A DNA stretch of 54,585 nt from a virus, in the IMG/VR virus record IMGVR_UViG_3300028384_000913, positions 1 through 54,585 of that record, one strand, 5' to 3'. Below the pieces are notes generated by a model. It was not told the DNA's origin. It searched no databases and saw nothing but the letters and a program-made list of their open reading frames with translations. A program made the translations under genes and the position numbers. Shown here one piece after another: positions 2,981 to 37,383 of this stretch; positions within the stretch are counted from its first letter, which is position 1; each line of letters opens with the position of its first letter.

Positions 2981-3993
2981 AAAAACTACTTTTAACGTTA
3001 GCTACTTGTACTGCTCTTACAACCCCTGCTTTTGCAGAATATAAAATGATCATTCCACAAAAGCCAGGAGGAGGCACTTCGCAATGGGCTACAATTATTG
3101 CAAAATACCTAGAACCACATCTAGGAGAAAAAATTAAATTAGTGCATATTCCAGGTGCTAGAGACATTCCTGGATTTAATAAATTCCATAATGAATTACG
3201 TTTTGATGATAAAACTATTATGGTGTCGCACGGCGGTAACGGTGTATCGTATCTTACTGAGAACGTAGACTATAATTACAAAGACTATCAGCCAATTGGC
3301 GGTATGAATCTTACTATTCATATTGGAGAAAAAGAATTAGGAGATCACATTTACTTTGCAGGAGGTTCAGGCAATATCCCAGATGTTATGGCATTAACTC
3401 TCTATATGTGTGGAAATCTTGGAAGCTTTGAAGAATACGAAAAATGCTACAAAGACAATATCACTTTTGTAAAAGGAATGTCTGGAAGTGAAAGAAGGTT
3501 AGCATTCAATAATGGTGAGCTGAATATTACGAGAGAGAACCCTGCCGCCTACAAAAAACATGCTAAAGCAGCTAATCTGTTATTCACACATGGAGTTTTT
3601 GACTTAGATGAAGGCAAAGTTGTTGATGATAGAAATAAACCTAATATGTCATTTGATAAAGTCTTCACTGCAAAATGGGGGGAAGCACCTCAAGGTGATT
3701 TTTACGATGCATACATGCTTGTTAAAAACTACAGAGACATGCTACAAAAAGCATTATGGATGAATAAAGATAATCCTAACTCGGTACCTGTGACTTTGGC
3801 ACTCCTTGATATGCTAGAAGATAATGAAGCTATGGCAGCTATCGAGAAAAAAGTAGGAGACTATGACTGGTTTATTGCAGACGAACTAATTGAAGCTGTG
3901 AACTATCTTGAGAACAATAAAAATGAAGAGACCCAAGATTATCTCATTAAATGGCAAAGACAAGTCTTAGGGTATAATGCAGTCAAAAAATAG
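2977..3993 (+). CDS. tctC: TctC-like periplasmic solute-binding protein
   Basis: The first 20 residues form a Sec signal peptide: K-K at the N-terminus, a hydrophobic core and an A-F-A cleavage site before E-Y-K. Mature residues then give M-I-I-P-Q-K-P-G-G-G-T-S, the P-G-G-G-T motif of the Bug/TctC family, and later I-P-G-A-R. In that family the protein captures a carboxylate in the periplasm and hands it to TctA/TctB. At 338 residues it is near family length (about 320). The middle and C-terminal parts diverge from what I remember of cellular TctC, with an unusually acidic, alpha-helical tail, so the ligand cannot be predicted. Translationally coupled to the permease through ATGA; its end overlaps the next gene. 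Confidence 0.82.
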   Translation: MKKLLLTLATCTALTTPAFAEYKMIIPQKPGGGTSQWATIIAKYLEPHLGEKIKLVHIPGARDIPGFNKFHNELRFDDKTIMVSHGGNGVSYLTENVDYNYKDYQPIGGMNLTIHIGEKELGDHIYFAGGSGNIPDVMALTLYMCGNLGSFEEYEKCYKDNITFVKGMSGSERRLAFNNGELNITRENPAAYKKHAKAANLLFTHGVFDLDEGKVVDDRNKPNMSFDKVFTAKWGEAPQGDFYDAYMLVKNYRDMLQKALWMNKDNPNSVPVTLALLDMLEDNEAMAAIEKKVGDYDWFIADELIEAVNYLENNKNEETQDYLIKWQRQVLGYNAVKK

Positions 3994-7163: not shown

Positions 7164-7847
7164 ATGTCAAAATTTGAATACACTGAAGATATGGTTGCAC
7201 GTATGCACGATGTTGCTGGCGCAGGCGTAACTGAAGAATCAATCGAAGGTCTTATGGAAGAATTCGATTTCCCACGTCGGTCAGTAACCGCAAAACTGCG
7301 TAAGCTGGGCTACGACGTACCTAAAAAGCCAGGTGCAGCTCCTGTTTTCTCAGCAGAAGAAACAGACAAGCTGGCTGACTTCCTGAATACTAACTCAGGC
7401 AACATGACTGCTGAAGAAATTGCAGCAGAATTCATGGGTGGTAAGTTTACTGCTCGTCAAATCAACGGTAAAGCTCTTTCACTGGAAATGACATCACATG
7501 TCAAGCCAGCTGAGAAGAAGATCACTCCACGTACCTACACTGAGGAAGAAGAGTCAAAGATCGCATCTATGGTCGATGGCGGTTCATACCTCGAAGAGAT
7601 TGCTGACTCAATGGGTCGTTCTGTAAACTCAATTCGTGGCAAACTGTTGTCAATGGGTCTTAAGGCTCCACAGCGTGATAAGAAAGATACTAAAGCAGAC
7701 CCATATGCAGGTATCGAAGATATGCTGGATCAAACTGTCGAAGAGATCGCTGAATCATTCGACAAGACAGTACGAGGTGTAAAGACTGTTCTTACACGTC
7801 GCGGTCTTAGCTGTGCAGATTACACACCAAAAGCTGCTGGTGAGTAA
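7164..7847 (+). CDS. Tandem HTH (Myb/SANT-like) DNA-binding protein
   Basis: 227 residues built from about four repeated helix-turn-helix units (roughly 1-50, 58-107, 125-170 and 178-217). Each opens with an acidic helix and ends with a recognition-type helix: R-R-S-V-T-A-K-L-R-K-L-G, T-A-R-Q-I-N-G-K-A-L-S-L, S-V-N-S-I-R-G-K-L-L-S-M-G, T-V-R-G-V-K-T-V-L-T-R-R-G. This suggests a sequence-dependent or coating DNA-binding protein, perhaps a regulator or nucleoid-like factor. Codon use is visibly richer in G and C than the neighbours (many CGT, CTG, GGT, TTC codons), as expected of a very highly expressed gene. It stands as a single-gene unit between a strong promoter and a strong terminator. The target DNA is unknown. 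Confidence 0.7.
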   Translation: MSKFEYTEDMVARMHDVAGAGVTEESIEGLMEEFDFPRRSVTAKLRKLGYDVPKKPGAAPVFSAEETDKLADFLNTNSGNMTAEEIAAEFMGGKFTARQINGKALSLEMTSHVKPAEKKITPRTYTEEEESKIASMVDGGSYLEEIADSMGRSVNSIRGKLLSMGLKAPQRDKKDTKADPYAGIEDMLDQTVEEIAESFDKTVRGVKTVLTRRGLSCADYTPKAAGE

Positions 7848-7871
7848 TTGAAATCCTTGGGGGGATATAGG

Positions 7872-7900
7872 GGGTGGTAGGTAACTACCACCCTTTTTTT
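7872..7900 (+). terminator. Intrinsic terminator with GTAA tetraloop
   Basis: Perfect 9-bp stem GGGTGGTAG / CTACCACCC closed by the stable tetraloop GTAA, followed at once by seven T. It ends the single-gene unit of the multi-HTH protein. The T-run finishes only 3 bases before the ATG of the amidinotransferase gene, so that gene can be reached only by read-through or has an unseen signal. Confidence 0.95.
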
Positions 7901-7903
7901 ATT

Positions 7904-8923
7904 ATGTTCAAAGCATTTACAGAATTTCAAAAATTAAAAAAAGTTATGGTAGGCAGAGGTTTCTCAACCTCGATTGTAGAAAGTGGTTATCTTAGAGATA
8001 AACTAACTCCCTCAACTAAAAGTTTGCTAACAAATCTTTTAGAAGAGACTGAAGAAGATTATCAAAACTTAATTAACATATGCGAAGAATTCGGGGCACA
8101 AGTTGTGCGTCCAGAATACTCTTCAAATAATATGGATATTGTACCCTATCTAATGTCTCCTAGAGATAATCTAATAGCGTTACATGATTCGTTATTAGTG
8201 TGTAATGAGGCGATGCAAACTAGTATAGACCTGTGTGGCCCTTTTGTTAGTCAAACAGCTAATATTAAAAGAGGGAAACATACTTTCGGTTTGATGCCTC
8301 CTTCTATAGTAAGATTAGGTAAAGACATAATTTTAGATAAACAATCAGAACAAATATCAAATGCTGATTTAAGTGCAAAGTGGGTAAAAGATTGGTTAGA
8401 ACCTTTAGGGTATAATGTAATATATACTAAAACGCATGATTTCAAATTTAAAGGAAATATAAGTCACGGTGATGGGTGTTTCTCAATCCAAAAACCAGGT
8501 GTTATCTTAACGTGTAGAGAGGCTAAGCACTATACTGAGAATATATTTAAGAATTGGGATGTCTTTCAAGTTCCAAGTGCATGGGAAAAAATGAGTAAAT
8601 GGAACAAATTTAAAGAAGATACACGGTCTTATGCCTTTACTGATGTTAAATATATTGATCCCGTATGGAATAAATTAATAACAGACTGGTTATCTGATTG
8701 GGTTGGATATTCTCAAGAAACTATTTTTGACGTAAATGTATTATCTCTAGATGAAAATCATGTAGTAGTATCACATTACGATAAAGAAGTTTTTGCATAT
8801 TTTAAAAAGCACAAAATAGAACCTATAATAAGTCCTTGGAGACATAGATTTTTTTGGGATGGAGGAATACATTGTATAACACTAGACTTAGAAAGAGAAG
8901 GTGAATGTGAGCAATATCTATAA
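7904..8923 (+). CDS. Glycine-amidinotransferase-like enzyme, copy 1
   Basis: 339 residues, full-length for the amidinotransferase (AGAT) family, which moves an amidino group from arginine to an amine. Motifs seen: P-R-D-N (Asp88), R-L-G-K-D-I (136-141), S-H-G-D-G (His188, Asp190) and G-G-I-H-C-I-T (Cys324, candidate nucleophile), then R-E-G-x-C-E-Q-Y-L at the end. As I recall human AGAT, the Asp that pairs with the catalytic His sits just before the R-x-G-x-D-I block; here that place is Ser (P-P-S-I-V-R), so chemistry may differ. I chose ATG 7904 by alignment to copy 2; the GTG at 7874 would lie inside the terminator. No good ribosome site is visible. Substrate unknown. Confidence 0.82.
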   Translation: MFKAFTEFQKLKKVMVGRGFSTSIVESGYLRDKLTPSTKSLLTNLLEETEEDYQNLINICEEFGAQVVRPEYSSNNMDIVPYLMSPRDNLIALHDSLLVCNEAMQTSIDLCGPFVSQTANIKRGKHTFGLMPPSIVRLGKDIILDKQSEQISNADLSAKWVKDWLEPLGYNVIYTKTHDFKFKGNISHGDGCFSIQKPGVILTCREAKHYTENIFKNWDVFQVPSAWEKMSKWNKFKEDTRSYAFTDVKYIDPVWNKLITDWLSDWVGYSQETIFDVNVLSLDENHVVVSHYDKEVFAYFKKHKIEPIISPWRHRFFWDGGIHCITLDLEREGECEQYL

Positions 8924-9992
8924 TTCATATGCTGAGTTTTTACCTCTTAAAACAGTGATGGTTGGTAGGTGTCATTCTTCTGAAAGTTTAGATCATACTT
9001 CTCTAGAGATGTCAGAAAAAACTAAAAACTTATTCAAGCAACTTTTACAAGAAACAGAGGAAGACTTTCAGCAGTTTATTTCTATCTGCAAGCAATTTGG
9101 AGCAGAAGTCAAAAGACCTAAGTATTCATCTAAATCTTTTAAAACCTCTGACTCTAGAGAAGCCCTAGGCTTAGGGGGTATGCGAGAAAGTCTTTTTCAA
9201 GAATACCCCTATCTACTGATTCCAAGAAATAATTTAATAACCTTAGATGACACGGTAGTATCAATAAATTCTGATGATGTTATACATAATGATTATATTA
9301 GTTCTATCACAAACATTAAAAATATAAGAAATGAATACACCACACATGACAATCTAAAGCCTTCTTCAATTATTAGGTTGGGTAAAGATATAATTGTAGA
9401 CAAACAAGAATTTATGAACAGTAACACTGAAAAAGGGTTTAATTATTTAAAAGAATGGTTAGAGCCTATTGGTTATAATATAATATACACAGCGTATCAT
9501 AACTTTAAATTTGCTGATCATCAAAGTCATGGCGATAGTACTTTGGCAATATGTAAACCAGGAGCATTGATAAGCCATGTTGATGCTAAAAATTATACGA
9601 CAGAGATTTTTAAATCCTGGGACGGTCTGACAATATCAGAAGACTCAAGTAAAAATAAGCTTAATAAATGGTACAGTCTAAAAACAAAATTAGCTAATTT
9701 CAACTTCTTTAGTAAAAAATATAATGATGAAGCTTTTCACCATACTATAGAAAACTGGTTCAAGGAATGGGTAGGATACGCTAATGAAACAGTATTTGAT
9801 ATTAATATTTTCTCTCTTGATGAGAGTACCGTTGTCGTATCTAACTATAACAAAGAAGTATTTGATTTCTTCAAAAAACACAAAATAGAGCCAATTATAT
9901 GTAACTTTAGACATAGGTATTTCTGGGATGCAGGATGGCATTGCTTAACTTCAGATTTAGAAAGAGAAGGAAATTGTGAACAATATCTCTAA
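8907..9992 (+). CDS. Glycine-amidinotransferase-like protein, copy 2
   Basis: Tandem paralogue of the upstream gene (361 residues from GTG 8907). It keeps V-M-V-G-R, R-L-G-K-D-I, S-H-G-D, the terminal G-W-H-C-L-T (candidate nucleophile Cys) and the C-terminal R-E-G-N-C-E-Q-Y-L, but P-R-D has become P-R-N and an insert of about 20 residues sits between residues 75 and 100. It may have a new specificity, or serve as a non-catalytic partner of copy 1. The start is GTG 8907, 6 bases after the ribosome site AGAGAAG, which is itself encoded by the conserved end of copy 1; GTG 8901 is an alternative. Overlaps the next gene in the same way. Confidence 0.78.
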   Translation: MSNIYNSYAEFLPLKTVMVGRCHSSESLDHTSLEMSEKTKNLFKQLLQETEEDFQQFISICKQFGAEVKRPKYSSKSFKTSDSREALGLGGMRESLFQEYPYLLIPRNNLITLDDTVVSINSDDVIHNDYISSITNIKNIRNEYTTHDNLKPSSIIRLGKDIIVDKQEFMNSNTEKGFNYLKEWLEPIGYNIIYTAYHNFKFADHQSHGDSTLAICKPGALISHVDAKNYTTEIFKSWDGLTISEDSSKNKLNKWYSLKTKLANFNFFSKKYNDEAFHHTIENWFKEWVGYANETVFDINIFSLDESTVVVSNYNKEVFDFFKKHKIEPIICNFRHRYFWDAGWHCLTSDLEREGNCEQYL

Positions 9993-10428
9993 AGATATCG
10001 AAGAATGGATTGATAGAATTACTACCCCTATCAGCGGTTATCAAATATGCCCCTACGCTAAAAAAGCTAAGTACCTAATATTCGAGCACGAAGATATGCT
10101 AAGTATGCAAATGAAAGCTGCTTTTTACAATTATTCAGAAGATTTAATAATTTGTATACCTACAGATAAATATATGACTGTAGATAGGGCTAAGTATATT
10201 GAATATAACATCAACAAGACTGCATTAAACACTATAGTACTATTAGACCATCCTGAAGATCCTGGATATATAAACGGAGTGTATACAGGTAATGGTAAAC
10301 ATATAGTATTCCTTATCCAACCAAAGAAAGAACTCTTAGAAGCCCGAAAACATCTAAAAACTACTAGTTACTATGATAAATGGACTGAAGAGTATAAGAA
10401 CAAAATATGGCAAAACAATTACTATTAG
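9976..10428 (+). CDS. Hypothetical protein, possibly DUF1415-like
   Basis: 150 residues. The N-terminus pairs a W-I-D helix with C-P-Y-A-K-K (residues 25-30), which recalls the C-P-F-A segment of DUF1415 proteins; the similarity is weak. The rest (L-I-I-C-I-P-T, V-Y-T-G-N-G-K-H-I-V-F-L-I-Q-P) looks like an alpha/beta protein. It starts with GTG 9976, with AGAGAAGG supplied by the conserved end of the second amidinotransferase gene, so it is the third member of a translationally coupled series and probably acts with those enzymes. Function unknown. Confidence 0.5.
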   Translation: MNNISKDIEEWIDRITTPISGYQICPYAKKAKYLIFEHEDMLSMQMKAAFYNYSEDLIICIPTDKYMTVDRAKYIEYNINKTALNTIVLLDHPEDPGYINGVYTGNGKHIVFLIQPKKELLEARKHLKTTSYYDKWTEEYKNKIWQNNYY

Positions 10429-11546: not shown

Positions 11547-12934
11547 TGGCAATTGACTTACAAAAACTTACTCTGCGTAGATTACTAGATACGCAGAGTA
11601 ATGATCTATACTCAAAACTCTTAAATCAATACTTTACAGGTATCAATTCTGTACTGTTCGATAAAGTTAAATCTTTCTACAAAGCTAATACTCGTCTACC
11701 TTCAACAGACGAGATTCTTGCGTTACGTAAAGACACTGGGCTTCAAGAATATTTAGAGAATCAAATATGTTCTGAAGATAACTATAATGAGGCTATACAA
11801 GACGAGTTTTTAGTAGCACAGCTTCAAGACTTTTACATTCGTGATGAAACTATTCATTTCATGGATAAGTTTGTCGATCAACTAGAAGATCTTGAAAAAG
11901 TTGAAATCGTAGATAAATTTCAAAACCATCTTCTTCACTTAAACCAAGCTATACCCCATGACGATGAGTTGTACGATATTGCAGAGCTAGAGTTTTTCCC
12001 TAGCGAAGACGATTTCAAGATATATCCTTCTGGATTATCTAACGAGTTTGACGCTATTAACGGTGGTTTTGCTACACAAGAACTTATCATGTTAGGTGGG
12101 CGTAGAGGATCTGGTAAATCTATTATATCTCTGAATCTTGCTATTAACAGATTTTTGCAAGGTAACACAGTTGCATTTTTTACTATTGAGATGCGATACA
12201 AAGAAGTGTACGACCGTGTACTGTCTATTATATCTGGTGTACCGTTTCTAGATATTTTTAGAAATCAACTTACAGATGCTCAAAAGATTACTATGGCTAA
12301 GGCTAAGTTTGAAAACTTCTACAAACCTTCTGACAAAATTAATCAGATGGTGCAAGAACTTGAATACACAAAAGATTTTAAAAACTTTGAAAAACGTGTA
12401 AAAATCGAAAGACCTGAGCTTAAGGATCATAGACTATTCATGATTGATGATGAGTCTCTAACTCTAAACAGAATTGATCATTATTGTAATATGTTTTCAT
12501 CAAAGTATCCTGCCTTTAACATGGCCGTAGTTGACTATGTTAATATCATCAAGCACGATGATCAAAAAGACTGGAAAACACAAATCACAATCGCTGATAA
12601 TCTCAAATCTCTTTCCCGTAAATATGACTTAACTATGATATCACCCTACCAAATCGATGCTACAGGCGAAGCTAGATTTGCTAAAGGCATCCTTGATTCT
12701 GCTGATCGTAGCTTCAACTTCTTTCCTCCTGCAGAAACAGAAGAAAGAGAGTTAGAAAGTAAGATATCTATACACACGACAAAAATGCGTAACGGTAAAC
12801 ACATGAGTTTTGATGTGATGATGGATTGGAGTTGTGTGAAAATTAATCCAGCTACCTCTGAAGTGATTAATGAACGACCGCATAATGCTGTAAAGTTTGG
12901 TACTGATAAACAAGAAGGATCACAAGACTTATAA
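11546..12934 (+). CDS. Replicative DNA helicase, DnaB/gp41-type
   Basis: Unwinds the replication fork as a RecA-fold hexamer. The N-terminal part (1-170) is helical, fitting a DnaB/gp41 N-domain. The motor domain has Walker A G-G-R-R-G-S-G-K-S (about 188-196), F-F-T-I-E-M after strand 2, Walker B M-A-V-V-D-Y (about 329) and the late arginine/loop region K-M-R-N-G-K near 415. Length 462 is usual. It begins at ATG 11546 (TAATG with the HTH gene) and is coupled to the primase gene through another TAATG, as in helicase-primase pairs of T4 and T5. A perfect 12-bp inverted repeat lies just inside the start. Confidence 0.9.
   Translation: MAIDLQKLTLRRLLDTQSNDLYSKLLNQYFTGINSVLFDKVKSFYKANTRLPSTDEILALRKDTGLQEYLENQICSEDNYNEAIQDEFLVAQLQDFYIRDETIHFMDKFVDQLEDLEKVEIVDKFQNHLLHLNQAIPHDDELYDIAELEFFPSEDDFKIYPSGLSNEFDAINGGFATQELIMLGGRRGSGKSIISLNLAINRFLQGNTVAFFTIEMRYKEVYDRVLSIISGVPFLDIFRNQLTDAQKITMAKAKFENFYKPSDKINQMVQELEYTKDFKNFEKRVKIERPELKDHRLFMIDDESLTLNRIDHYCNMFSSKYPAFNMAVVDYVNIIKHDDQKDWKTQITIADNLKSLSRKYDLTMISPYQIDATGEARFAKGILDSADRSFNFFPPAETEERELESKISIHTTKMRNGKHMSFDVMMDWSCVKINPATSEVINERPHNAVKFGTDKQEGSQDL
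11568..11601. repeat. 12-bp inverted repeat just inside the helicase gene
   Basis: Arms TTACTCTGCGTA (11568-11579) and TACGCAGAGTAA (11590-11601) match perfectly around a 10-base loop GATTACTAGA. In the helicase mRNA it is a strong hairpin starting 22 bases after the AUG, where it could limit ribosome entry. Read leftward, the second arm is followed by GTTTTTG, so it could also stop antisense transcription. Confidence 0.8.
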
Positions 12935-21630: not shown

Positions 21631-22587
21631 ATGACAAAAATTTTATGTTCAGCTGACTGGCATATCAATCTTCACAAAAAGAAGGTTCCATACGAATGGC
21701 AAGTGGGTAGATTCCGTGAAATGTTCCGTAAGCTCATCGCACTTGAACAGTCGTGTGATGTGCATGTGATAGCTGGTGACATCTTTGATACTAAACCGCA
21801 ACCAGATGAAATCTCTCTGTTTTTGAGCTATATCAATTCGGTCACAATACCCACACTCATCATCCCAGGCAATCATGAAGCTACTAGAAAAGGAGAATCT
21901 TTCTTTGAACATCTTACTGAGAAGAATGCTATCAAAAATGAGAACGTCACTGTATATTGCAAGAATGGACGCTGTGATGTGGCTGGCGTCGGTTTCCAAA
22001 TGTATCCGTATGGGGAAATGCAGATGGATAACCTACCCACGTATACTGAAGGCGATATTCTGGTTACGCATATTAGAGGAGAGGTTCCACCCCATATTAC
22101 GCCAGAGTATGACTTTGATAAGCTCAAACCGTGGAAACTCATTCTTTTGGGTGACTTGCATTTTAATCATCGTTATGGTGATACAAATGCTTATTATCCT
22201 GGCTCTCCTCTGAACACCACCTTTGACCGTGATGAGACAAGAGAGTATGGAGTTGATATCTATGACTTTATAGACGATCAGAACTATTCCCGCTCATTTT
22301 ATGATCTAAATCTGCCAAAGCTGATACGTCGTAAGATTGCTGTTGGTGAGAAGATGATAGACGACGCAAAGCATCATGTAGTGTATGAAGTAACAGGATC
22401 GCTAGATCAACTTGCAAAGATTGAGAACTCAGAGCTGTTAGATAAAAAGATGGTTGAGAAGCCTGTTGAAGATTCTACGCTAGATCTCAAAGGCAAGTCA
22501 ACCTACGAAGAACTTGAAATCTATCTAAATCATATCAAAGTTGCTGATGTTGAGAAGATACTAGATGAATATAGATCTCTCTCTTAA
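21631..22587 (+). CDS. SbcD/Mre11-type nuclease subunit
   Basis: A metallophosphoesterase with the full nuclease motif set in order: C-S-A-D-W-H-I-N (motif I, Asp and His), A-G-D-I-F-D-T-K (II), P-G-N-H-E (III), V-T-H-I-R-G (IV) and L-G-D-L-H-F (V). Mre11/SbcD and T4 gp47/T5 D12 pair with the Rad50-like subunit to process DNA ends and hairpins. Length 318 is close to phage members. AGAGAG precedes ATG 21631. Unlike most phages, a PP-loop gene lies between it and its partner. Confidence 0.92.
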   Translation: MTKILCSADWHINLHKKKVPYEWQVGRFREMFRKLIALEQSCDVHVIAGDIFDTKPQPDEISLFLSYINSVTIPTLIIPGNHEATRKGESFFEHLTEKNAIKNENVTVYCKNGRCDVAGVGFQMYPYGEMQMDNLPTYTEGDILVTHIRGEVPPHITPEYDFDKLKPWKLILLGDLHFNHRYGDTNAYYPGSPLNTTFDRDETREYGVDIYDFIDDQNYSRSFYDLNLPKLIRRKIAVGEKMIDDAKHHVVYEVTGSLDQLAKIENSELLDKKMVEKPVEDSTLDLKGKSTYEELEIYLNHIKVADVEKILDEYRSLS

Positions 22588-23485
22588 TCGTGTTTACTGG
22601 GAGTATGTACAAAACAACTCTTGGCTTAGACCTGAATACTCATATCTATGTTCTTCTCTCATCCCGTCTATCGGAGTGAGAGCAACAGTACCCATCTATC
22701 GTAGGCGATCTAAAAGCTTCAAAAATGATTTATCACTCTTAGTCAAAGCATTTGTCGCAAAGTATGGCACAGACTATAATTTTGTGTTAGCGCTGTCTGG
22801 CGGTATAGACTCAGAAGTAACAGCTGAAACATTCTATGAACAAGGAGTGCCATTTCGTGCTGTTACACAGAGGCTGTTTAATGGCGAAAATGATCATGAC
22901 ATTATCTATGCCGCAAAGTATTGTAAAGACAGAAACATACCAATTAAAATAGTAAATCTGTCAGAAGAACAAATGCTGAAGAAAACAATACCAGACGCAG
23001 TAAAGCATGGACAGTTTACGCACTCTTATTCACAGATTGCTCTCTGCAATCTATTCAACTATGTAGATTCAAGGTGTGACATACTAATCTTCTCAGGTCA
23101 TAATCCAGATCTACACCCAGAGATAGGCATGGGTTGGTGGGAAGACTCTCCAAACATTGTAAAATATGCTAGAGCAAAAGATCATAAATTCTTTACCTTC
23201 ACTTCGTTAGAACCTATCTTTTGCCACTATGCGGCTAACTTTGACCAGACCCAGCCAGGTGACAAGAATAATGATTTTTTGTACGAAGCATTCCCACAAC
23301 TGACACGAAGAGTTAAAATGACAGGATGGGAAAAAGCTGATAATATAATAGGAAGATTAGAGGATAAAATTAGATCTTCAGCTGCCTATGATTATCAGTC
23401 TTTTATCACTTGGGAAGAATTGACAATGGCATATATGAGAAAGATATTTGTACAGAAAGGATTAGAAGGAAAATACTATGAGTAA
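22565..23485 (+). CDS. PP-loop ATP pyrophosphatase-like protein
   Basis: 306 residues. The P-P-loop S-G-G-I-D-S at 78-83 is the AMP-forming ATP-binding loop shared by asparagine synthetase, NAD synthetase, QueC, TilS and related enzymes. Later S-G-H-N-P-D-L-H-P is a likely second active-site region. The N-terminal 60 residues have no obvious glutaminase domain, so ammonia or another donor would be external. The family cannot be pinned down: asparagine-synthetase-like and QueC-like activities are both possible, but I see no QueC-type Cys cluster. Overlaps the SbcD gene by 23 bases and the SbcC gene by 8, so all three are translated together. Confidence 0.75.
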   Translation: MNIDLSLNRVYWEYVQNNSWLRPEYSYLCSSLIPSIGVRATVPIYRRRSKSFKNDLSLLVKAFVAKYGTDYNFVLALSGGIDSEVTAETFYEQGVPFRAVTQRLFNGENDHDIIYAAKYCKDRNIPIKIVNLSEEQMLKKTIPDAVKHGQFTHSYSQIALCNLFNYVDSRCDILIFSGHNPDLHPEIGMGWWEDSPNIVKYARAKDHKFFTFTSLEPIFCHYAANFDQTQPGDKNNDFLYEAFPQLTRRVKMTGWEKADNIIGRLEDKIRSSAAYDYQSFITWEELTMAYMRKIFVQKGLEGKYYE

Positions 23486-29450: not shown

Positions 29451-30152
29451 TTGCCGAACGGAAACGGTAATGGTAAACACCATCTAAAACGTGTCAGAAT
29501 TGACGACCTACTTACTTTCTCACCTATAACTAAAAACCAAGAAAAAACCTTTTCAGCATATAAAAACGGAGACCACTTACTTCTTCACGGAATTGCAGGT
29601 ACAGGTAAAACTTTTATGAGCCTGTACCTAGCCCTAGAAGAGGTGCTTGATCCTTCTAGTGTTTATGACGATGTTTTCATTGTAAGATCAGCAGTAACAA
29701 CCCGTGATATAGGCTTCCTGCCTGGTGATGAACAAGAAAAAGTATCAATATACGAAGCTCCGTACAGATCAATCTGTAGGGAGCTTTTTGGTATGAAAGA
29801 CTCTTATGATTCTCTCAAACAGCAGAACAACGTCAAGTTTATGAGTACTTCTTTTATCAGGGGGATAACAATAAATAACGCTGTCCTTATCGTGGATGAA
29901 TGTCAGAACTTGAATTTTCATGAGCTTGATAGTATAATCACAAGAGTTGGAAAAAATAGTAAAGTTATATTTTGTGGAGACTATACGCAAACTGACTTGA
30001 CTAGAGAAAATGATAGAAATGGTATACAGAAATTCATGCGAATTCTGAAAGAGATACCAAGTTTCACAACTGTTGAATTTGAGATTGATGATATCGTAAG
30101 AAGTGATTTCTTAAAAGAGTATATTATCAGAAAATATAAGCTAGGTTATTAA
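29451..30152 (+). CDS. phoH: PhoH-like ATPase
   Basis: A single P-loop domain: Walker A G-I-A-G-T-G-K-T (about 46-53), F-I-V-R-S-A-V after strand 2, G-D-E-Q-E-K and Walker B L-I-V-D-E-C-Q-N (about 145). The F-C-G-D-Y-T-Q-T sensor motif and a late R-S-D-F follow. PhoH proteins are common in marine phages; their reaction is not firmly known. The start is TTG, with AGGAG about 7 bases before it. At 233 residues it is compact. Confidence 0.88.
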   Translation: MPNGNGNGKHHLKRVRIDDLLTFSPITKNQEKTFSAYKNGDHLLLHGIAGTGKTFMSLYLALEEVLDPSSVYDDVFIVRSAVTTRDIGFLPGDEQEKVSIYEAPYRSICRELFGMKDSYDSLKQQNNVKFMSTSFIRGITINNAVLIVDECQNLNFHELDSIITRVGKNSKVIFCGDYTQTDLTRENDRNGIQKFMRILKEIPSFTTVEFEIDDIVRSDFLKEYIIRKYKLGY

Positions 30153-31073
30153 ATGCTAAAAACTGGACTACCTAATAATAAAGCAAAACCTTTTGGTGGT
30201 GCGTATAGCGTACACGATAAAGAACAAGTAGAATATTTAAACGAGTTAATTCAAAATTACTCTAATTACTCAACAGATATAAATTATACTAAACATTCAT
30301 TTTTTGATACTTACTTAGAATGGATGGCTAGTACTCATGATTTAGTCGGTTTTGATGAATACACTGAATGTTGCTTTACAAACGGTACTACAGAATCATT
30401 TACTAACTTTTATCTTAGGTATAAGGATACTAAGAGGCTGAGATTGATCAAAGGTGATTATTTTTATCACAAAATGACTCAAAAACTTTACTTCCAAGAA
30501 CCTGATAACTTTGCATGGTTTCATGACGATGATCTGCGTGAAGGTGACATCCTAGTTATGAGTTGTCCTTTTTCAGATTCTGGAGACCTGTACCCAGACC
30601 TTGAAAGTATCCTTATTACCTGCGATAACAAGAATATTCCAGTAATGCTTGATTTAGCTTATATTAATATAGCTAAAAATTTTTCAATTAATTTAGATCA
30701 TAAATGTATAGAATATTTAGTATCCTCTCTATCAAAAGCTTTTCCTCTAGAAACTCATAGAGTAGGAATACGTATCCAAAAAACAAAGTTTGAAGATCCT
30801 TTATATGTAGTAAATGAAGATGGTCATAATTATTTTAATCATATGAGTGTCTATTTAGGTAACTTTATGATGCAAGAATTCCCTGCTAACTATATTGTAA
30901 ACAAATATGAACAAGCACAAGAATATTGGTGTAGTAAACTTGACGTGAAGCCTTCTAAATGTGTAATATTTGGAATTGATACAAAAGGTTTATTTCAAGA
31001 ATATAGCAGAGGATTAGAAAATAATAGACTATGCTTTTCAAGGGTTTGGGATGGAAGGATGACAATTGATTAA
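30153..31073 (+). CDS. PLP-dependent aminotransferase-like protein
   Basis: 306 residues, compact for a fold-type I aminotransferase (about 380). Seen: F-T-N-G-T-T-E-S-F (75-83, phosphate-binding loop region), V-M-L-D-L-A-Y (Asp167 would hold the pyridine nitrogen, Tyr170 the ring oxygen), V-S-S-L-S-K-A-F (Lys195, Schiff-base lysine) and H-R-V-G-I-R (Arg203). All are in the right order and spacing. The final small domain is short, so either the enzyme is minimal or its substrate is unusual (for example attached to a carrier or protein). Next to a 2OG oxygenase-like gene with an 8-base overlap; a shared pathway is inferred. Confidence 0.75.
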   Translation: MLKTGLPNNKAKPFGGAYSVHDKEQVEYLNELIQNYSNYSTDINYTKHSFFDTYLEWMASTHDLVGFDEYTECCFTNGTTESFTNFYLRYKDTKRLRLIKGDYFYHKMTQKLYFQEPDNFAWFHDDDLREGDILVMSCPFSDSGDLYPDLESILITCDNKNIPVMLDLAYINIAKNFSINLDHKCIEYLVSSLSKAFPLETHRVGIRIQKTKFEDPLYVVNEDGHNYFNHMSVYLGNFMMQEFPANYIVNKYEQAQEYWCSKLDVKPSKCVIFGIDTKGLFQEYSRGLENNRLCFSRVWDGRMTID

Positions 31074-31587
31074 ACAACTTAAATTGAATTTAGATTTTAA
31101 TATGTTTTTAACTGCTGATTATAGCAACAGCTATTGTTGTATAGGACACCAAAAAGAAGAAAATAAAGACATATTTAAAAAACACGGGGTTAAAACTTTA
31201 CCTGAATCCTATGTAAATGAAAATACACAAATTAGACAGGTCTGGTGGGACGATAAAGATCTCAAAAGAGAATTAGGCAAACTTGTAAATCTTGATGTAC
31301 AGACAGTAAGCTCAATCAGACAAGACCCAGGAAATATCATACCAATACACAAAGATAAGTTCTTCAAGGTATATAGTAAAAATCCTCAAGAAAAAAGAAA
31401 AATGGCAAGAGCTAACGTATTTTTAGAAGATTGGAAGTTCGGACATTTTTTACAATACGATGATGTGATAGCTCCACCATGGAAAGCAGGAGACTGTTAT
31501 CTGTGGGACGGTTACTTAGATCACTTGAGCTGTAATGCAGGGCTTGTTCCTAAGTATACCTTACAGATTAGTGGATTTATATTATGA
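31066..31587 (+). CDS. 2-oxoglutarate/Fe(II) oxygenase-like protein
   Basis: 173 residues with a jelly-roll pattern. H-K-D (His95, Asp97) in I-P-I-H-K-D-K, and H-L-S-C-N (His153) followed by Lys163 in K-Y-T-L-Q-I-S-G, fit the H-x-D...H iron triad and the basic 2-oxoglutarate contact. I-R-Q-D-P-G-N preceding it is like Asp/Asn beta-hydroxylase or prolyl-hydroxylase type sequences. It probably hydroxylates a protein side chain, a small molecule or a nucleic acid base; none is proven. The start is TTG 31066 after GGAAGGA. Overlaps the aminotransferase-like gene. Confidence 0.72.
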   Translation: MIKQLKLNLDFNMFLTADYSNSYCCIGHQKEENKDIFKKHGVKTLPESYVNENTQIRQVWWDDKDLKRELGKLVNLDVQTVSSIRQDPGNIIPIHKDKFFKVYSKNPQEKRKMARANVFLEDWKFGHFLQYDDVIAPPWKAGDCYLWDGYLDHLSCNAGLVPKYTLQISGFIL

Positions 31588-32027
31588 CAAATAAAAATAA
31601 AGCTAAAGGTTCAGCGTATGAGCAAAAGATAGCTACACGACTAACAAAAGAATTTGATGTTGAGTTCAGAAGGGTTCCTCTTTCAGGATCTATTGATTAT
31701 TTAAAAGGAGACATTTGGACTCCTCATGATACCGCGTGGTGGCCTTATGCTATTGAGTGTAAGCATTATAAAGATATTGAATGGAACAATCTTTTAACTT
31801 CAAAAACTACAGACATGCTGCAATTCTGGAGACAAGCAGTTAGAGAGGCTGAAGTAATGAACAAGAAACCTTTACTTATATTTAGATGGAACAGATCAAA
31901 AGATTTTGTAGGATTTGATGATGATACAGAAGTAGCGTCGTACATTGAAATTAAATCTTTTGGTTGTAATTTTAAAGTTTGTCTATTAGATGATTGGCTA
32001 GAAGTAGTAAAACCAAAATTCAAATGA
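31584..32027 (+). CDS. PD-(D/E)xK nuclease, Holliday-junction-resolvase-like
   Basis: 147 residues. The pattern K-G-S-A-Y-E-Q (Glu of motif I), G-D-I-W (Asp), Y-A-I-E-C-K-H (E-x-K, catalytic) fits the PD-(D/E)xK fold of archaeal-type and phage resolvases. It may cut branched replication intermediates before packaging. An alternative is a restriction-type endonuclease of the same fold. ATGA overlap with the oxygenase gene upstream and again downstream, so it is translated as part of this cassette. Confidence 0.75.
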   Translation: MTNKNKAKGSAYEQKIATRLTKEFDVEFRRVPLSGSIDYLKGDIWTPHDTAWWPYAIECKHYKDIEWNNLLTSKTTDMLQFWRQAVREAEVMNKKPLLIFRWNRSKDFVGFDDDTEVASYIEIKSFGCNFKVCLLDDWLEVVKPKFK

Positions 32028-33028
32028 ATATTATAGGCTACTTTAATGAAGTAAAATGGAGAGAGTTAGAAGAAAAAACTCTTAACACTACTTACATAAA
32101 GTTTTTTCGTCCTGAAGATCATGTAATCGGTTCTAAAAGTATGAAAAAATTAGAAAATATAGAATTAATAGGTGAGACTACATTACACATAATAAACAGT
32201 TCAACTGTAGGTAGAATATTTTACAAATCTTTAGAAGAAAAATTCAATGTAATATATGAAGATTTTTGCACATGGCACGGTTATGAATCTATGATGGGTT
32301 TGAAGAGAGCTAATCAATCATTCAAACCTACCAACCCTCAGAAAAACTTTTGTTCTTTGAACCACAGACCTCGTATTAAAAGATGCGCTTTTGTGGACGC
32401 ATTAGAAAAACATGATCTTATAAACGATAATTACGTAAGTTGGCAAGGTTATGAAACAAAATACCCTTTTAAATATTTTGATAATAGAAAAATTACTTTT
32501 GATAATGTTTATGAATCAGATCAGCATTTAAATAAGGTACCTTTTGATATGCACGTACCGCCAGAAGAAGCTTTTAAAAATAGTCTTTGGAGTGTTGTGT
32601 GTGAATATATGATGGACGAAGGTGAGGATAATACATACACTCTTACAGAAAAGACTATGGTTCCCATCGCACACCAAAAGCCTTTGATAATTTTTGGAAG
32701 TGAGAATATATATAAAAATTATCTAGATCTTGGCTTTGAGTTATATGATGAGGTGATTGATTATTCTTTCTCAGAAATAACTGATTTTGACAAAAGACTA
32801 GAAATGTTTATGGAACAAGTAAAAAGATTAAATATTATGGATCACGAATTATTAAAACCAAAAGCACTTAGAAACTACAATAACCTAGTTAGACTAGTAA
32901 ATGATAAAATAATGTCAAGAAATGATAAAAGGTTAAGCCAAGAGAATCTTGACGAGATAAAAACTCTATTGTCATCAAGAGAATCCAATAAAGATATCGA
33001 CCATCAAAATGTAGCAAAAAAGTTATGA
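32024..33028 (+). CDS. Glycosyltransferase-like protein
   Basis: 334 residues. The C-terminal half resembles the GT10-type or related retaining sugar transferases: K-N-S-L-W-S-V-V-C-E-Y, T-L-T-E-K-T-M-V-P-I-A-H-Q-K-P-L-I-I-F-G, then the L-G-F-E-L-Y-D-E turn, which fit the nucleotide-sugar binding region of such enzymes (S-x-x-x-E...T-E-K...P). N-L...C-S-L-N-H-R-P-R-I-K-R at the middle may bind donor or phosphate. Start ATG 32024 (ATGA). Acceptor and sugar unknown; alternative is a family seen in marine phages without activity assigned. Confidence 0.55.
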   Translation: MNIIGYFNEVKWRELEEKTLNTTYIKFFRPEDHVIGSKSMKKLENIELIGETTLHIINSSTVGRIFYKSLEEKFNVIYEDFCTWHGYESMMGLKRANQSFKPTNPQKNFCSLNHRPRIKRCAFVDALEKHDLINDNYVSWQGYETKYPFKYFDNRKITFDNVYESDQHLNKVPFDMHVPPEEAFKNSLWSVVCEYMMDEGEDNTYTLTEKTMVPIAHQKPLIIFGSENIYKNYLDLGFELYDEVIDYSFSEITDFDKRLEMFMEQVKRLNIMDHELLKPKALRNYNNLVRLVNDKIMSRNDKRLSQENLDEIKTLLSSRESNKDIDHQNVAKKL

Positions 33029-33642
33029 AGATTATTACTCCTTATTGTACTTCGGGTGTAAACTTACCCTATACTATCAATATTGATAAACCAAAATTCA
33101 AAATAGGAATTTTCGGTGATAGTTTTGCTCAATTAGCAGAGTTTGAGTCTATTCATACGTATTTTAACCACGAAGCCTCTTGGATTTATTTTTTGGCAAA
33201 TATGCTTAAAGCCGAATGTTCTACTTATGGTATATCAAATGCAAGTATGTCCGATATTCTAGAGACAGTCTTTACCTGTGAAGAGAAGTATGATTTTTAT
33301 ATAGTATGGGTAACGGCTCCCTTGAGACCCTCACTTTTTTCAGAAATATCTTACAATTCTAAGAATATGATTAAGCTTAAAAAGTTTTTGTCGAACAAAG
33401 AAGCAGTAATTTTATATTGGGATTTAGCACATAAAATCGTTGATTTAAATAAACCTGAACTTGTGTGTACAGAGTACCTAACTAATCAAAATTTTAATGA
33501 GATAAATACTTTTGAAAAAGCTCCAAATCCGCTTGATCAAACTGCTGGATATCACCACATGTCAGCAAGAGGAAATCTATTATTTGCTATAAGACTATGC
33601 GAGTACATCAAACTTTCATTTGCTTACAATATAAAAAATTGA
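33025..33642 (+). CDS. SGNH/GDSL hydrolase-like protein
   Basis: 205 residues. Block I is I-G-I-F-G-D-S-F-A-Q (nucleophile Ser33), and block V is likely the late G-Y-H-H-M-S (Asp/His pair with an upstream D-Q). This layout fits the SGNH hydrolase superfamily, esterases that often deacetylate sugars or polysaccharides. A virion- or capsule-modifying role would match the glycosyltransferase gene upstream. Overlaps it by ATGA. It is the last gene before the promoter at 33620. Confidence 0.7.
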   Translation: MKIITPYCTSGVNLPYTINIDKPKFKIGIFGDSFAQLAEFESIHTYFNHEASWIYFLANMLKAECSTYGISNASMSDILETVFTCEEKYDFYIVWVTAPLRPSLFSEISYNSKNMIKLKKFLSNKEAVILYWDLAHKIVDLNKPELVCTEYLTNQNFNEINTFEKAPNPLDQTAGYHHMSARGNLLFAIRLCEYIKLSFAYNIKN

Positions 33643-33673: not shown

Positions 33674-34516
33674 ATGACTAAATCTTGGAACGATCTTGCA
33701 GACTTGCAAGAGCCTGACTACTCTGCATACAATAATCTACTAATTATTGACGCAAACAACCTTTCTTATCGCTGGTTACAACGACCCAATTATGGCTCAT
33801 TTGGCGCCGACTTTATCCGCACAATCCAATCACTCGCAAAGTCCTATGAAGCAGCAAGGACAATTGTATGTTTTGACTTCGGTAAATCATACTATCGCAT
33901 GGATATGCATGAAGAATACAAAGGTACACGTAAAAAACCACAAGAGGAAGAAGAAGTAAAAAAGTATGAAGAGTTTTTTGCAGTCCTCAACGACTTACCC
34001 GATCAACTTGATGAAGAAGTTTTAAAATTCAGAGGAGTTGAAGCTGATGATATTCTAGCATGGATTACTCAAAATATATCTGATAGATATGATCACACCT
34101 GGGTTGTATCTTCCGATAGAGACTTGTATCAGCTTGTTGACAAGAACGTATCTATTTTTAATATCTTTGGTAGAAAAGAAGTTACAATTGATACTTTGAG
34201 AGACGACTTTGAAGTAACTCCTTCTGAGTATATGTTATCAAGAATTATTGAAGGTGATAAATCTGATAATATTATTGGGATTGAGGGTATCGGACCTAAG
34301 CGTGCTCAAGGACTTGCAAGAGAGTACAAAACACTAGACTCTCTACTTGAAGCTTTACCAATCAAAGGCAGATCAAAATACATTACTAATCTAAACGCTG
34401 GAGCAGATACGTTAATCAGAAATGAGAAACTAATCAATCTCAAGAAGTATTGCGTAGAAGCAATTACTGCTGGTAAAAACGGAGATGAACCTCTTGAGCA
34501 GCTTAAAAACTTGTAA
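33674..34516 (+). CDS. 5'-3' exonuclease/flap endonuclease, T5 D15-like
   Basis: Removes RNA primers and flaps. 280 residues with L-I-I-D-A-N-N (first Asp), E-E-Y-K-G-T-R (Arg/Lys of the helical gateway), G-V-E-A-D-D-I (Glu, Asp, Asp cluster), V-S-S-D-R-D-L-Y-Q-L (Asp pair), and the helix-hairpin-helix G-D-K-S-D-N-I-I-G-I-E-G-I-G-P-K-R-A. T5 D15 has the same size (291) and order. First gene after a promoter, followed by an overlapping dUTPase-like gene. Confidence 0.92.
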   Translation: MTKSWNDLADLQEPDYSAYNNLLIIDANNLSYRWLQRPNYGSFGADFIRTIQSLAKSYEAARTIVCFDFGKSYYRMDMHEEYKGTRKKPQEEEEVKKYEEFFAVLNDLPDQLDEEVLKFRGVEADDILAWITQNISDRYDHTWVVSSDRDLYQLVDKNVSIFNIFGRKEVTIDTLRDDFEVTPSEYMLSRIIEGDKSDNIIGIEGIGPKRAQGLAREYKTLDSLLEALPIKGRSKYITNLNAGADTLIRNEKLINLKKYCVEAITAGKNGDEPLEQLKNL

Positions 34517-35087: not shown

Positions 35088-35748
35088 AATTATTAGCTAC
35101 TCACAAACACCTGAAGACTTAGTAGTGGGTAATGATATACAAGAACTCATAGCCTATTGCGCTAGAGTTTCTAATCCTGATAATCAAATGTCCTCTGAAA
35201 CTTCAGAAAAACTATTAAAATATTTAATCAGGGAAAAACACTGGTCACCCTTTGAAATGGTATCAGTCTGTATGGAGATCACCACAACTCGTGATATCGC
35301 TAGACAGATTTTACGGCATCGGTCATTCTCATTCCAAGAGTTTAGCCAACGGTATGCAAATCCGTTAGAAGGGTTGAAAAGAGTAACTCGGGAAGCTAGA
35401 TTACAAGACTATAAGAATAGACAGAATAGCATTGAAACTGACGATAACGCATTACAACAGCAATGGGCTGCTCAACAAGATTTAGTATGGCTTCAAGCTG
35501 TTAAAGCTTATAACTGGGCAATAGAAATGGGTATTGCTAAAGAACAAGCTAGAGCAGTTCTGCCAGAAGGCATGACTGAATCAAGATTATATGTTAATGG
35601 TACTCTTAGATCATGGTTACACTATATTGATTTGCGTGAAAAAAATGGAACACAGAAAGAGCATATCGAGATAGCGAGAGCTTGTGCTGAGGCAGTAACT
35701 GAAATATTCCCTATGGGTAAGTCGTATTTAGCACCTCCAAAAACATGA
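35077..35748 (+). CDS. thyX: Flavin-dependent thymidylate synthase
   Basis: Makes dTMP from dUMP with FAD and methylene-THF. The signature R-H-R-S-F-S-F-Q-E-F-S-Q-R-Y (about residues 87-100) is the ThyX motif R-H-R-x-x-S-x-x-x-x-S-x-R-Y. Other family blocks are present: C-A-R-V-S-N-P at the N-terminus and R-A-V-L-P-E-G-M-T near 167. Length 223, usual. Overlaps the dUTPase-like gene by 11 bases and the next gene by ATGA. With RNR, MazG and glutaredoxin it completes the deoxynucleotide pathway. Confidence 0.95.
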   Translation: MEVRIISYSQTPEDLVVGNDIQELIAYCARVSNPDNQMSSETSEKLLKYLIREKHWSPFEMVSVCMEITTTRDIARQILRHRSFSFQEFSQRYANPLEGLKRVTREARLQDYKNRQNSIETDDNALQQQWAAQQDLVWLQAVKAYNWAIEMGIAKEQARAVLPEGMTESRLYVNGTLRSWLHYIDLREKNGTQKEHIEIARACAEAVTEIFPMGKSYLAPPKT

Positions 35749-36857
35749 TAGCCTTTTTAACTCAGTATTACAGAGGATTAGGACACTCTCAACGAGTAAA
35801 GTTTATAGCTGAAAAAGTAGGAGAAACCCATGACGTTATAATCATGGATCAGCTTTTTCAGCCTCCTCTAGAATACTCTGTTCCTCACGTAGCCTTCCTA
35901 AAAGATTATAAACTAAGTGACGTAAACAATATGTTCCAGTTTATAATGAGGGATGAACTTATTCACTACAGAATAAATCAATTTATTAAAGTTTTAGATA
36001 AATACAAGGTAAAAACTTTAGTATGTGAAGGATTCCCGTTTTGTAGGCATCAATTTGCTCATGAATATATTAGATATTTTGAAGAGTGTAAAAAACGTGG
36101 CATAAAGATAATTATCTCTGTAAGAGATTTTCCGTGGGACGAACCGCATGAAAATGCATTACAAGATTGGGTTCTATATACACAGAATCTCGTAATCAAG
36201 TATTACGCAGAGAAAGTTATAGTTCATGGCGATCCAAAAATATTACCACTATATACTGATAGATTTAGGCATGCTAATAGTAAACAATTAATAGACGATC
36301 TTAAAGATAAGTTAATCTATACTGGTTACGTATGTGATAAATCAGTAGGTAAGCATGAACAAAAAAATAATAACATTTACGTAAGTACTGGGCTTAATAA
36401 AGAAGAGGGAATGTTGCTTTTTAAAAATATTCTTAAAATCGCTCCTGACTTTCCAAAACATACTTTTGTTATGACAGTAGCAAACAGGTATTTAACAACT
36501 GGCGTAAAAAAGAAAGGTAATGTTCTCATGGTTGAGTACATACCTGAATTAAGAAAAAAGTTAGTTGATTGTGCAGCTTATATTACTTATGGAGGCTATA
36601 ACGCGACAGTTGAGATTTTACAAAGCGGTATCCCATCAATAATCATACCAAGACAAGATGGGCAGAAAATGGAACAATTCGTAAGGGCGTATACTTTTGA
36701 GCCTCATGGTTATTTTAAAGTAGCTGCTGGAAATGATATAAAAAATTTAGGTGAAATGCTAAAAGAAGTTATAACAGAAAAGCCTACACCTTTTGAATAC
36801 AATATGAACGGGACAGAGGAGTCTGCAAATGTCATCAAACAGATACACGATGGATGA
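35745..36857 (+). CDS. GT28/MurG-like glycosyltransferase
   Basis: 370 residues in GT-B form. The N-terminal domain begins with Y-Y-R-G-L-G-H-S-Q-R, the glycine-rich loop of MurG-like enzymes (G-x-G-H). The C-terminal domain has N-N-I-Y-V-S-T-G-L near residue 208 and the donor-binding C-A-A-Y-I-T-Y-G-G-Y-N-A-T-V-E-I-L-Q-S-G-I-P-S-I-I-I-P near 290 (G-G-x-x-T-x-x-E-x-x-x-x-G-x-P). It likely transfers a sugar from UDP- or similar nucleotide-sugar. Acceptor unknown; DNA or a virion protein are candidates in a phage. Overlaps ThyX and the methyltransferase. Confidence 0.82.
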   Translation: MIAFLTQYYRGLGHSQRVKFIAEKVGETHDVIIMDQLFQPPLEYSVPHVAFLKDYKLSDVNNMFQFIMRDELIHYRINQFIKVLDKYKVKTLVCEGFPFCRHQFAHEYIRYFEECKKRGIKIIISVRDFPWDEPHENALQDWVLYTQNLVIKYYAEKVIVHGDPKILPLYTDRFRHANSKQLIDDLKDKLIYTGYVCDKSVGKHEQKNNNIYVSTGLNKEEGMLLFKNILKIAPDFPKHTFVMTVANRYLTTGVKKKGNVLMVEYIPELRKKLVDCAAYITYGGYNATVEILQSGIPSIIIPRQDGQKMEQFVRAYTFEPHGYFKVAAGNDIKNLGEMLKEVITEKPTPFEYNMNGTEESANVIKQIHDG

Positions 36858-37383
36858 TGTCAGAAGAGATGAAGCAATCTGGAAAGAGCTAGTTGCACAA
36901 AATGAGATAACTCTGTTAAACCATTATGTACGTACAGGCAAGCTTCACAAGCCTTATGAATTAGCTGAGAAGAATGCTTGGATTATAAGAACATTAAGAG
37001 ATAAAAAGCAGAGATACAAGTTTGATAAGTGTAAAAATGTAGTAATGATAGGTAGCGGTATGTACCCATACTCTATGTTTGATTTACATAAACAATACCC
37101 GCATATTAATCAAATAGGTTTAGAAATAGATAAAAAGCGGGCTATTATAAGTCAAAAATTAGTAGAGGCATGTCCCGCTAAAGATTCAATAAAAATAATA
37201 GCCATAGACGCAATGGACTATGACTATAGTTGGTTGGGTATAGATGATTTAATATTTGTCTCAGTCGATGTAGAACACAAAGATATTGTACAAAAGGCTC
37301 TAAAAACAAGTAAGGCGCAACTTTATATTTGTGCGCCTTACGATAAGTCTTGGTTGTACAACTTAGTTAATCATCTTACTTAA
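36829..37383 (+). CDS. Rossmann methyltransferase, nicotianamine-synthase-like
   Basis: 184 residues. V-V-M-I-G-S-G-M-Y-P-Y-S (about 71-82) is motif I of a SAM-binding Rossmann fold in the form seen in nicotianamine synthase-like proteins; I-G-L-E-I-D-K-K-R is the acidic strand 2 end and A-I-D-A-M-D-Y is motif III-like. A short N-terminal helix pair precedes. It could use SAM as methyl or aminopropyl-type donor, so a simple methyltransferase is not certain. A ribosome site AGAGGAG sits 8 bases before ATG 36829. The last rightward gene; its end contains the antisense terminator at 37302. Confidence 0.65.
   Translation: MSSNRYTMDDVRRDEAIWKELVAQNEITLLNHYVRTGKLHKPYELAEKNAWIIRTLRDKKQRYKFDKCKNVVMIGSGMYPYSMFDLHKQYPHINQIGLEIDKKRAIISQKLVEACPAKDSIKIIAIDAMDYDYSWLGIDDLIFVSVDVEHKDIVQKALKTSKAQLYICAPYDKSWLYNLVNHLT
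37302..37341 (-). terminator. Leftward intrinsic terminator inside the last rightward gene
   Basis: Perfect 10-bp arms GTAAGGCGCA (37310-37319) and TGCGCCTTAC (37332-37341) around a 12-base loop. Read leftward the second arm is followed by TTGTTTTTAG, a usable T-run; read rightward there is none. It would end the tail operon after its last gene (37376), but lies in codons of the convergent gene. Confidence 0.75.

Follow-up and report, generated by a model that had tools for sequence, protein, structure and literature searches.

A PLP enzyme and a small 2-oxoglutarate oxygenase gained and lost together in a cargo slot of T5-like marine phages

Which of the genes inserted among the replication genes of a phage belong together, and what might they make? 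The question is raised by positions 30153–33642 of the virus record IMGVR_UViG_3300028384_000913, whose 54,585 bases are called the window here. Five open reading frames (ORFs) lie there on one strand, with overlaps of 4–8 nt or more. A sequence-only reading of the window had described them as five coupled genes forming one small biosynthetic or modification cassette, unlike the replication genes on both sides: a pyridoxal 5'-phosphate (PLP) enzyme, an Fe(II)/2-oxoglutarate (2OG) oxygenase, a nuclease, a glycosyltransferase (GT), and an SGNH-type esterase. The ORFs, their common strand, and their overlaps are real, but the five do not make up one cassette. Comparison with relatives reveals that phoH and the Holliday-junction-resolvase (HJR)-like nuclease gene of this T5-like phage bracket a cargo slot, amid replication genes; the PLP and 2OG genes are gained and lost jointly within it. 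The flap endonuclease (FEN) and the DNA polymerase of the window are 37–41% identical to their T5-like phage counterparts.

The gene phoH was used as an anchor to collect 80 related viral loci (loci are numbered L001 and so on here), and intervals from phoH to the HJR-like nuclease or flap endonuclease gene were compared. The comparison covered 40 distinct slots from related marine phages, 25 with the PLP gene and 15 without. Thirteen of the 40 are empty, phoH lying at most 69 bp from the nuclease gene, and in L002 (PhoH 97% identical), L014, L018, L022, and others phoH abuts that gene directly. Since the nuclease gene also stands beside empty slots, it belongs to the phage backbone and not to a cassette; the contrast with the flanking replication genes drawn by the sequence-only reading applies to the PLP and 2OG genes and fails for the nuclease, itself a core replication gene. 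The Fisher P values given here carry no correction for common descent, and PLP itself led to some of the PLP-bearing slots, so that these values overstate the associations; the all-or-none pattern is independent of them. The 2OG gene is found in 24 of the 25 PLP slots and in none of the 15 others (P 4e-10). The same counts and P value apply to c8, a 340-aa amidinotransferase, with the window as the exception. Similarly absent from the 15 other slots are c9 (370 aa; 21/25, P 1e-7), the GT family (18/25, P 6e-6), and c10 (9/25, P 0.015). By contrast, the GDSF/SGNH-like gene of the window is uncorrelated with PLP (2/25 versus 1/15, P 1.0). Occurrence apart in relatives, which the sequence-only reading had set as evidence against its cassette, is thus true of the nuclease and SGNH genes, and not of PLP and 2OG, nor of the GT associated with them. 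As for other cargo, the slots of L003 and L028 carry a 381-aa ORF resembling serine hydroxymethyltransferase (SHMT) and an ORF resembling staphylococcal nuclease (SNase), and that of L003 also an SGNH-like ORF, all as read from sequence.

The slot of the window is the shortest that bears PLP (1,432 bp), with PLP followed by 2OG and neither c8 nor c9. In many relatives the gene order c9-2OG-PLP-amidinotransferase is kept, other genomic contexts included, and of the 22 distinct PLP loci flanked on both sides by 3 kb, 2OG lies within 4 kb in 20 and c8 is present in 19. Median dN/dS in relatives is 0.13 for PLP, 0.16 for 2OG, 0.12 for c8, and 0.20 for c9, and such low values indicate purifying selection on these enzymes. 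Further loci were fetched via 2OG, and hence show recurrence rather than frequency: PLP precedes 2OG with an 8-nt overlap in L173 and L174, as in the window; the order is GT-2OG-c10-PLP-c8 in L182; the pair is accompanied by a second oxygenase-like ORF in L194, L198, and L225, with an amidinotransferase following in L194; and it stands alone in L224 and L235.

As judged from profiles and residue alignments, the aminotransferase class I/II-fold assignment of the PLP enzyme holds. The protein matches PF00155 over residues 132–208 only (E 4.3e-6, 26.6 bits versus a cut-off of 19.7), and its hhalign alignment with E. coli HisC (E 0.0026) pairs K195, D167, Y170, and R203 with K214, D184, Y187, and R222, the HisC residues that bind PLP or its phosphate. 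All four are invariant among 17 aligned homologs, and K195 is the proposed Schiff-base lysine. A profile search of the PDB gave a marginal match only. The phage enzyme thus has the catalytic Lys, Asp, Tyr, and Arg positions of HisC-like fold-type I enzymes (PF00155), from which it differs in its length of about 300 aa, in the lack of an equivalent of Asn157, and in having relatives that are almost only viral. Indeed, 223 PLP relatives were found in viral contigs versus a single one by a scan of the same kind in one-per-species genomes, a scan that relies on short peptide patterns, which distant relatives can escape. That single relative lies in a Verrucomicrobia metagenome-assembled genome, on a short contig that carries similar enzyme genes and could be viral too. 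When the PLP or GT protein of the window was used as a single query against viral contigs, no matches were obtained, relatives of both being reached only with an alignment as query or through the phoH anchor, and the phage GenBank collection contains almost no relatives of the cassette genes. Among isolate records, a PLP homolog (25%) could be detected in one alone, that of pelagiphage Mosig EXVC030M, near Asp_Arg_Hydrox and dioxygenase genes. Its cluster, near tail-fiber genes, is much larger, belongs to another phage family, and occupies another site than that of the window; it includes aminotransferases, oxygenases, a carbamoyltransferase, and MoaA-like proteins (L001).

The 2OG assignment, for its part, is confirmed by the predicted fold and by an HxD...H site placed on the double-stranded beta helix. 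The AlphaFold 2 model is confident (pLDDT 91.6, pTM 0.86), and 2OG oxygenases make up most of what Foldseek and VIA align with it. The best are the putative oxygenase 3dkq (Z 11.8, rmsd 2.8 over 144), a prolyl 4-hydroxylase (Z 11.7, rmsd 3.5 over 152), and SnoN (Z 11.6, rmsd 2.8 over 144), all tied. The metal site, H95xD97 with H153, is invariant in an alignment of 16 sequences, and a conserved Lys/Arg ahead of an LQ-x-SG motif may, from its position, contact the C5-carboxylate of 2OG. Failure of the PLP and 2OG calls in structure prediction, the other outcome that the sequence-only reading had held against itself, did not occur for 2OG, and the PLP call is upheld by its profile score and aligned catalytic residues. 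The 2OG family is widespread, with at least 580 confirmed loci, and adjoins GTs in many unrelated phages; in Synechococcus phage S-SCSM2R, a relative lies beside an annotated inosamine amidinotransferase. 2OG-Fe(II) oxygenases have been noted in cyanophages (PMC3037559). With such phage enzymes the protein of the window shares fold, HxD...H site, and size, and the S-SCSM2R relative is annotated as one of them; it differs in its tie to the PLP enzyme and in having no Pfam or PHROG family match of its own.

The remaining three genes of the region have different standings. The nuclease is a PDDEXK_15, phage HJR-like protein, matched over most of its length by PF24608 (E 1.2e-29, 103.8 bits versus a cut-off of 27) and by PHROG 244 (E 1.2e-24). 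The GT has no Pfam, PHROG, or NCBIfam match and is 16–24% identical to 23 homologs, with a conserved C-terminal motif. Its model is confident in the C-terminal half only (about residues 110–150 and 190–300), where the VIA matches are mostly GT-B folds at Z 8–9, headed by T4 beta-glucosyltransferase (Z 9.0, rmsd 3.8 over 155) with many tied; Foldseek by itself returned nothing below E 0.001. The protein is therefore probably a GT-B-type glycosyltransferase of a divergent family, as predicted from its C-terminal half, and the likeliest start of its ORF is the ATG at 32024, in an ATGA overlap with the nuclease stop, rather than the TTG at 31994. In the last ORF, the GDSFA of SGNH block I is invariant among three aligned sequences, but the GxND of block III is not among the invariant columns and profile scans gave no convincing family match; it is at most a possible SGNH hydrolase. 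Its few viral relatives, where mapped, occur at the same site. Eight proteins compared with the PADLOC anti-phage defense models gave no match. Farther right, a GT28-like glycosyltransferase (35745–36857) and a small methyltransferase-like ORF (36829–37383) are conserved in slot-empty and slot-full relatives and are core genes. Table 1 lists the features discussed.

Table 1. Features of the slot region and amidinotransferase-like genes of the window
Feature	Position	Strand	Basis and standing
PhoH-like ATPase	29451..30152	+	PF02562 E 4.5e-44; left slot border, a core gene and not cassette
PLP-dependent fold-type-I enzyme, aminotransferase class I/II-like, 306 aa	30153..31073	+	PF00155; module core
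Fe(II)/2-oxoglutarate oxygenase, 173 aa, TTG start	31066..31587	+	AlphaFold 2 model and structural matches; module core
PDDEXK Holliday-junction-resolvase-like nuclease	31584..32027	+	PF24608, PHROG 244; right slot border, core replication gene
Probable GT-B-type glycosyltransferase, divergent phage family, 334 aa	32024..33028	+	Alignment of homologs, C-terminal model; module accessory
GDSF-motif protein, possibly SGNH-hydrolase-like	33025..33642	+	Lies between nuclease and flap endonuclease; accessory, independent
Flap endonuclease, T5 D14-like	33674..34516	+	PF02739 E 1.7e-22; core gene right of the region
AT1, divergent amidinotransferase-family (pentein-like) protein	7874..8923	+	phmmer, PHROG 25854; about 21 kb upstream of the slot
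AT2, tandem paralog of AT1	8901..9992	+	tblastn with the cassette amidinotransferase; alignment

The companions found in relatives indicate the chemistry of which this pair may be part. The best solved match of c8, over its full length, is the inosamine-phosphate amidinotransferase StrB1 of streptomycin biosynthesis (1bwd, E 5e-78). The catalytic Cys and His of StrB1 are retained in the c8 proteins of relatives, although its FDAAN motif reads FEAAN there, the neighbors do not form an aminoglycoside cluster, and c8 is missing from the slot of the window. As for c9, it unites in one protein matches to two NCBIfam 'sporadic carbohydrate cluster' families, TIGR04324 (an oxygenase, E 1.4e-21) and TIGR04323 (E 1.3e-10); it differs from proteins of these families in scoring below both curated cut-offs, in its phage context, and in its absence from the slot of the window. 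The c10 protein has a GESF/GDSF start resembling that of an SGNH protein, as read from sequence, and no significant family match. A related amidinotransferase is also found among radical SAM and sugar-transferase genes in the Campylobacter phages CP220 and F379 (L084, L085).

Elsewhere in the window, two amidinotransferase-like genes lie in tandem with a gene for a small PHROG 10325 protein (9976–10428). AT1 matches HsvA (phmmer, E 3.1e-8), AGAT (E 1e-6), and PHROG 25854 (E 1.9e-22); it retains the PRD, SHGD, and HC motifs and has lost the acid of FE/DAA. AT2 is detected by tblastn with the cassette amidinotransferase at 9291–9968 (E 5.5e-7), and its PRD has become PRN. AT1 might possibly substitute for the partner that the slot lacks. 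In a tree test of partner replacement, the 2OG and PLP proteins of the window formed long branches of unresolved place. The AT1/AT2 and PHROG 10325 set recurs in L161–L163, a few genes upstream of the HJR and FEN genes. In L162, as read from sequence, the amidinotransferase-like gene directly follows a SpeD-like ORF (7658–8023), and a PurC-like ORF (11921–12652) stands between a dUTPase-like gene and thyX. Upstream of AT1, the window encodes TctA of a tripartite tricarboxylate transporter (1655–2980, PF01970 E 7.5e-85). The next ORF (2977–3993) has a signal peptide and resembles a TctC-type binding protein; a further ORF (1302–1673) is grouped with them, and in L160, L164, and L165, too, homologs are found close to amidinotransferase-like genes. 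A weakly matching PP-loop ATPase-like ORF (22565–23485, Asn_synthase/MnmA-like) has a similar ORF beside a Rad50-like gene in L162.

That PLP and 2OG are gained and lost jointly, that they are under purifying selection, and that an amidinotransferase and GTs keep them company all support a biosynthetic module. In this respect the sequence-only reading is supported for PLP and 2OG, which in relatives are joined by an amidinotransferase, a second oxygenase, and GTs, and is not supported for the nuclease and SGNH genes. The reading we favor, held with a little less than even confidence, is that of a mobile, phage-owned module for building a hydroxylated unit with an amine or guanidine group, which variable GTs attach to a glycan or the virion, the window carrying a reduced form. 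The PLP enzyme and the small oxygenase, inserted in the phoH-nuclease slot, would be its heart. The oxygenase would hydroxylate a small amino-acid- or amino-sugar-like precursor, and the PLP enzyme would transaminate, or otherwise remodel at C-alpha, the same precursor. In most relatives the StrB1-like amidinotransferase would then move the amidino group of arginine to the amine to give a guanidino product, and the variable GT-B enzyme may attach this unit, or a sugar bearing it, to a virion or host-surface glycan. Substrate, order of steps, product, and target are all inferred, as would be any replacement of the missing amidinotransferase by AT1 or AT2. The module may serve the decoration of virion or DNA proposed by the sequence-only reading; a glycan or virion target is favored over DNA by the carbohydrate-cluster oxygenase that relatives carry and by the GTs, which are multi-copy and diverge strongly.

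Several observations weigh against the module as we propose it. The PLP enzyme is short, at 306 aa, and the PLP-contacting N157 of HisC has no equivalent in it, the SPNNPTG of HisC corresponding to CPFSDSG. The slot of the window contains neither an amidinotransferase nor a c9 oxygenase, which leaves the guanidino step hypothetical in this phage. A role of AT1 as a co-inherited substitute is not supported, PLP being found in none of five AT1 contigs, by a scan made without a positive control; what matched AT1 in PLP contigs seems to be the cassette amidinotransferase. The slot is surrounded by replication genes rather than tail genes. Finally, in L224 and L235 the pair occurs with 2OG on the plus and PLP on the minus strand and no GT or amidinotransferase nearby, which indicates that glycan attachment may not be essential.

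This lone pair is also what would be expected of auxiliary metabolism, in which the two enzymes make a free amino-acid or guanidino compound, such as an osmolyte, a polyamine-like compound, or an energy buffer, and attach nothing to glycans. The SpeD-like ORF beside AT1 in L162 would be in line with this, and creatine-pathway genes reported as auxiliary metabolic genes of ocean viruses (GAMT, with GATM discussed; PMC11360552) provide a precedent. We nevertheless consider it unlikely: a GT accompanies the module in 18 of 25 slots and 2OG in many other neighborhoods, and the closest solved relative of c8 is StrB1, not GATM. DNA hypermodification appears somewhat less probable still. The PLP enzyme, the oxygenase, and the GT would then place a hydroxylated, aminated, and/or glycosylated group on phage bases against restriction. 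PLP enzymes and 2OG oxygenases do occur in known phage base-modification pathways, the module sits amid replication and nucleotide genes, and the C-terminal half of the GT has T4 beta-glucosyltransferase as its top match, albeit with dozens of GT-B proteins within 1 Z. However, no ThyA-like hydroxymethylase, no TET/JBP-like family, and none of the kinases and base-specific enzymes of known thymidine/cytosine hypermodification was listed by Pfam among the approximately 46 proteins scanned, a part of the genes of a window that is itself a fragment, and both the carbohydrate-cluster families matched by c9 and the multiplicity and divergence of the GTs point away from DNA. A ThyX-like ORF is present in the window, as read from its motif.

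That the oxygenase acts on a phage or host protein and hydroxylates one of its residues, with the GT glycosylating the hydroxyl and the PLP enzyme supplying the donor, is suggested by close structural matches to prolyl 4-hydroxylases, some acting on EF-Tu, and to AspH. Since small-molecule oxygenases (SnoN, Z 11.6; AsqJ) score equally, the 2OG fold does not discriminate between the two, and we regard protein modification as improbable. Least probable by our assessment is that these are unrelated genes drifting through a recombination hot spot with no functional link. Such passive cargo would account for the SHMT-like and SNase-like ORFs of L003 and L028 and for the lack of correlation between SGNH and PLP, and it gains from the overstatement of slot P values by shared ancestry, but it conflicts with the all-or-none occurrence of PLP with 2OG and amidinotransferase, with the recurrence of the pair in unrelated contexts, and with the low dN/dS.

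Within the part of the literature covered by our searches, no report of a PLP/2OG cassette was found. The module belongs with the known cargo biosynthesis genes of phages, which are usually read singly as auxiliary metabolic genes. Here, relatives with and without cargo at one site define the set of genes that move as a group, set a core nuclease apart from the cargo, and point to guanidino-type chemistry. More speculatively, and we would put this as doubtful though possible, marine phages may share a widespread, largely virus-restricted PLP and 2OG core that, together with StrB1-like amidinotransferases and fast-diverging GTs, makes guanidino-bearing glycans or metabolites, of a kind for which the literature searched gave no description, in the phage-host arms race. 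If its product decorates virions, the host surface, or DNA, it would add a new chemical group to the disguises of phages.

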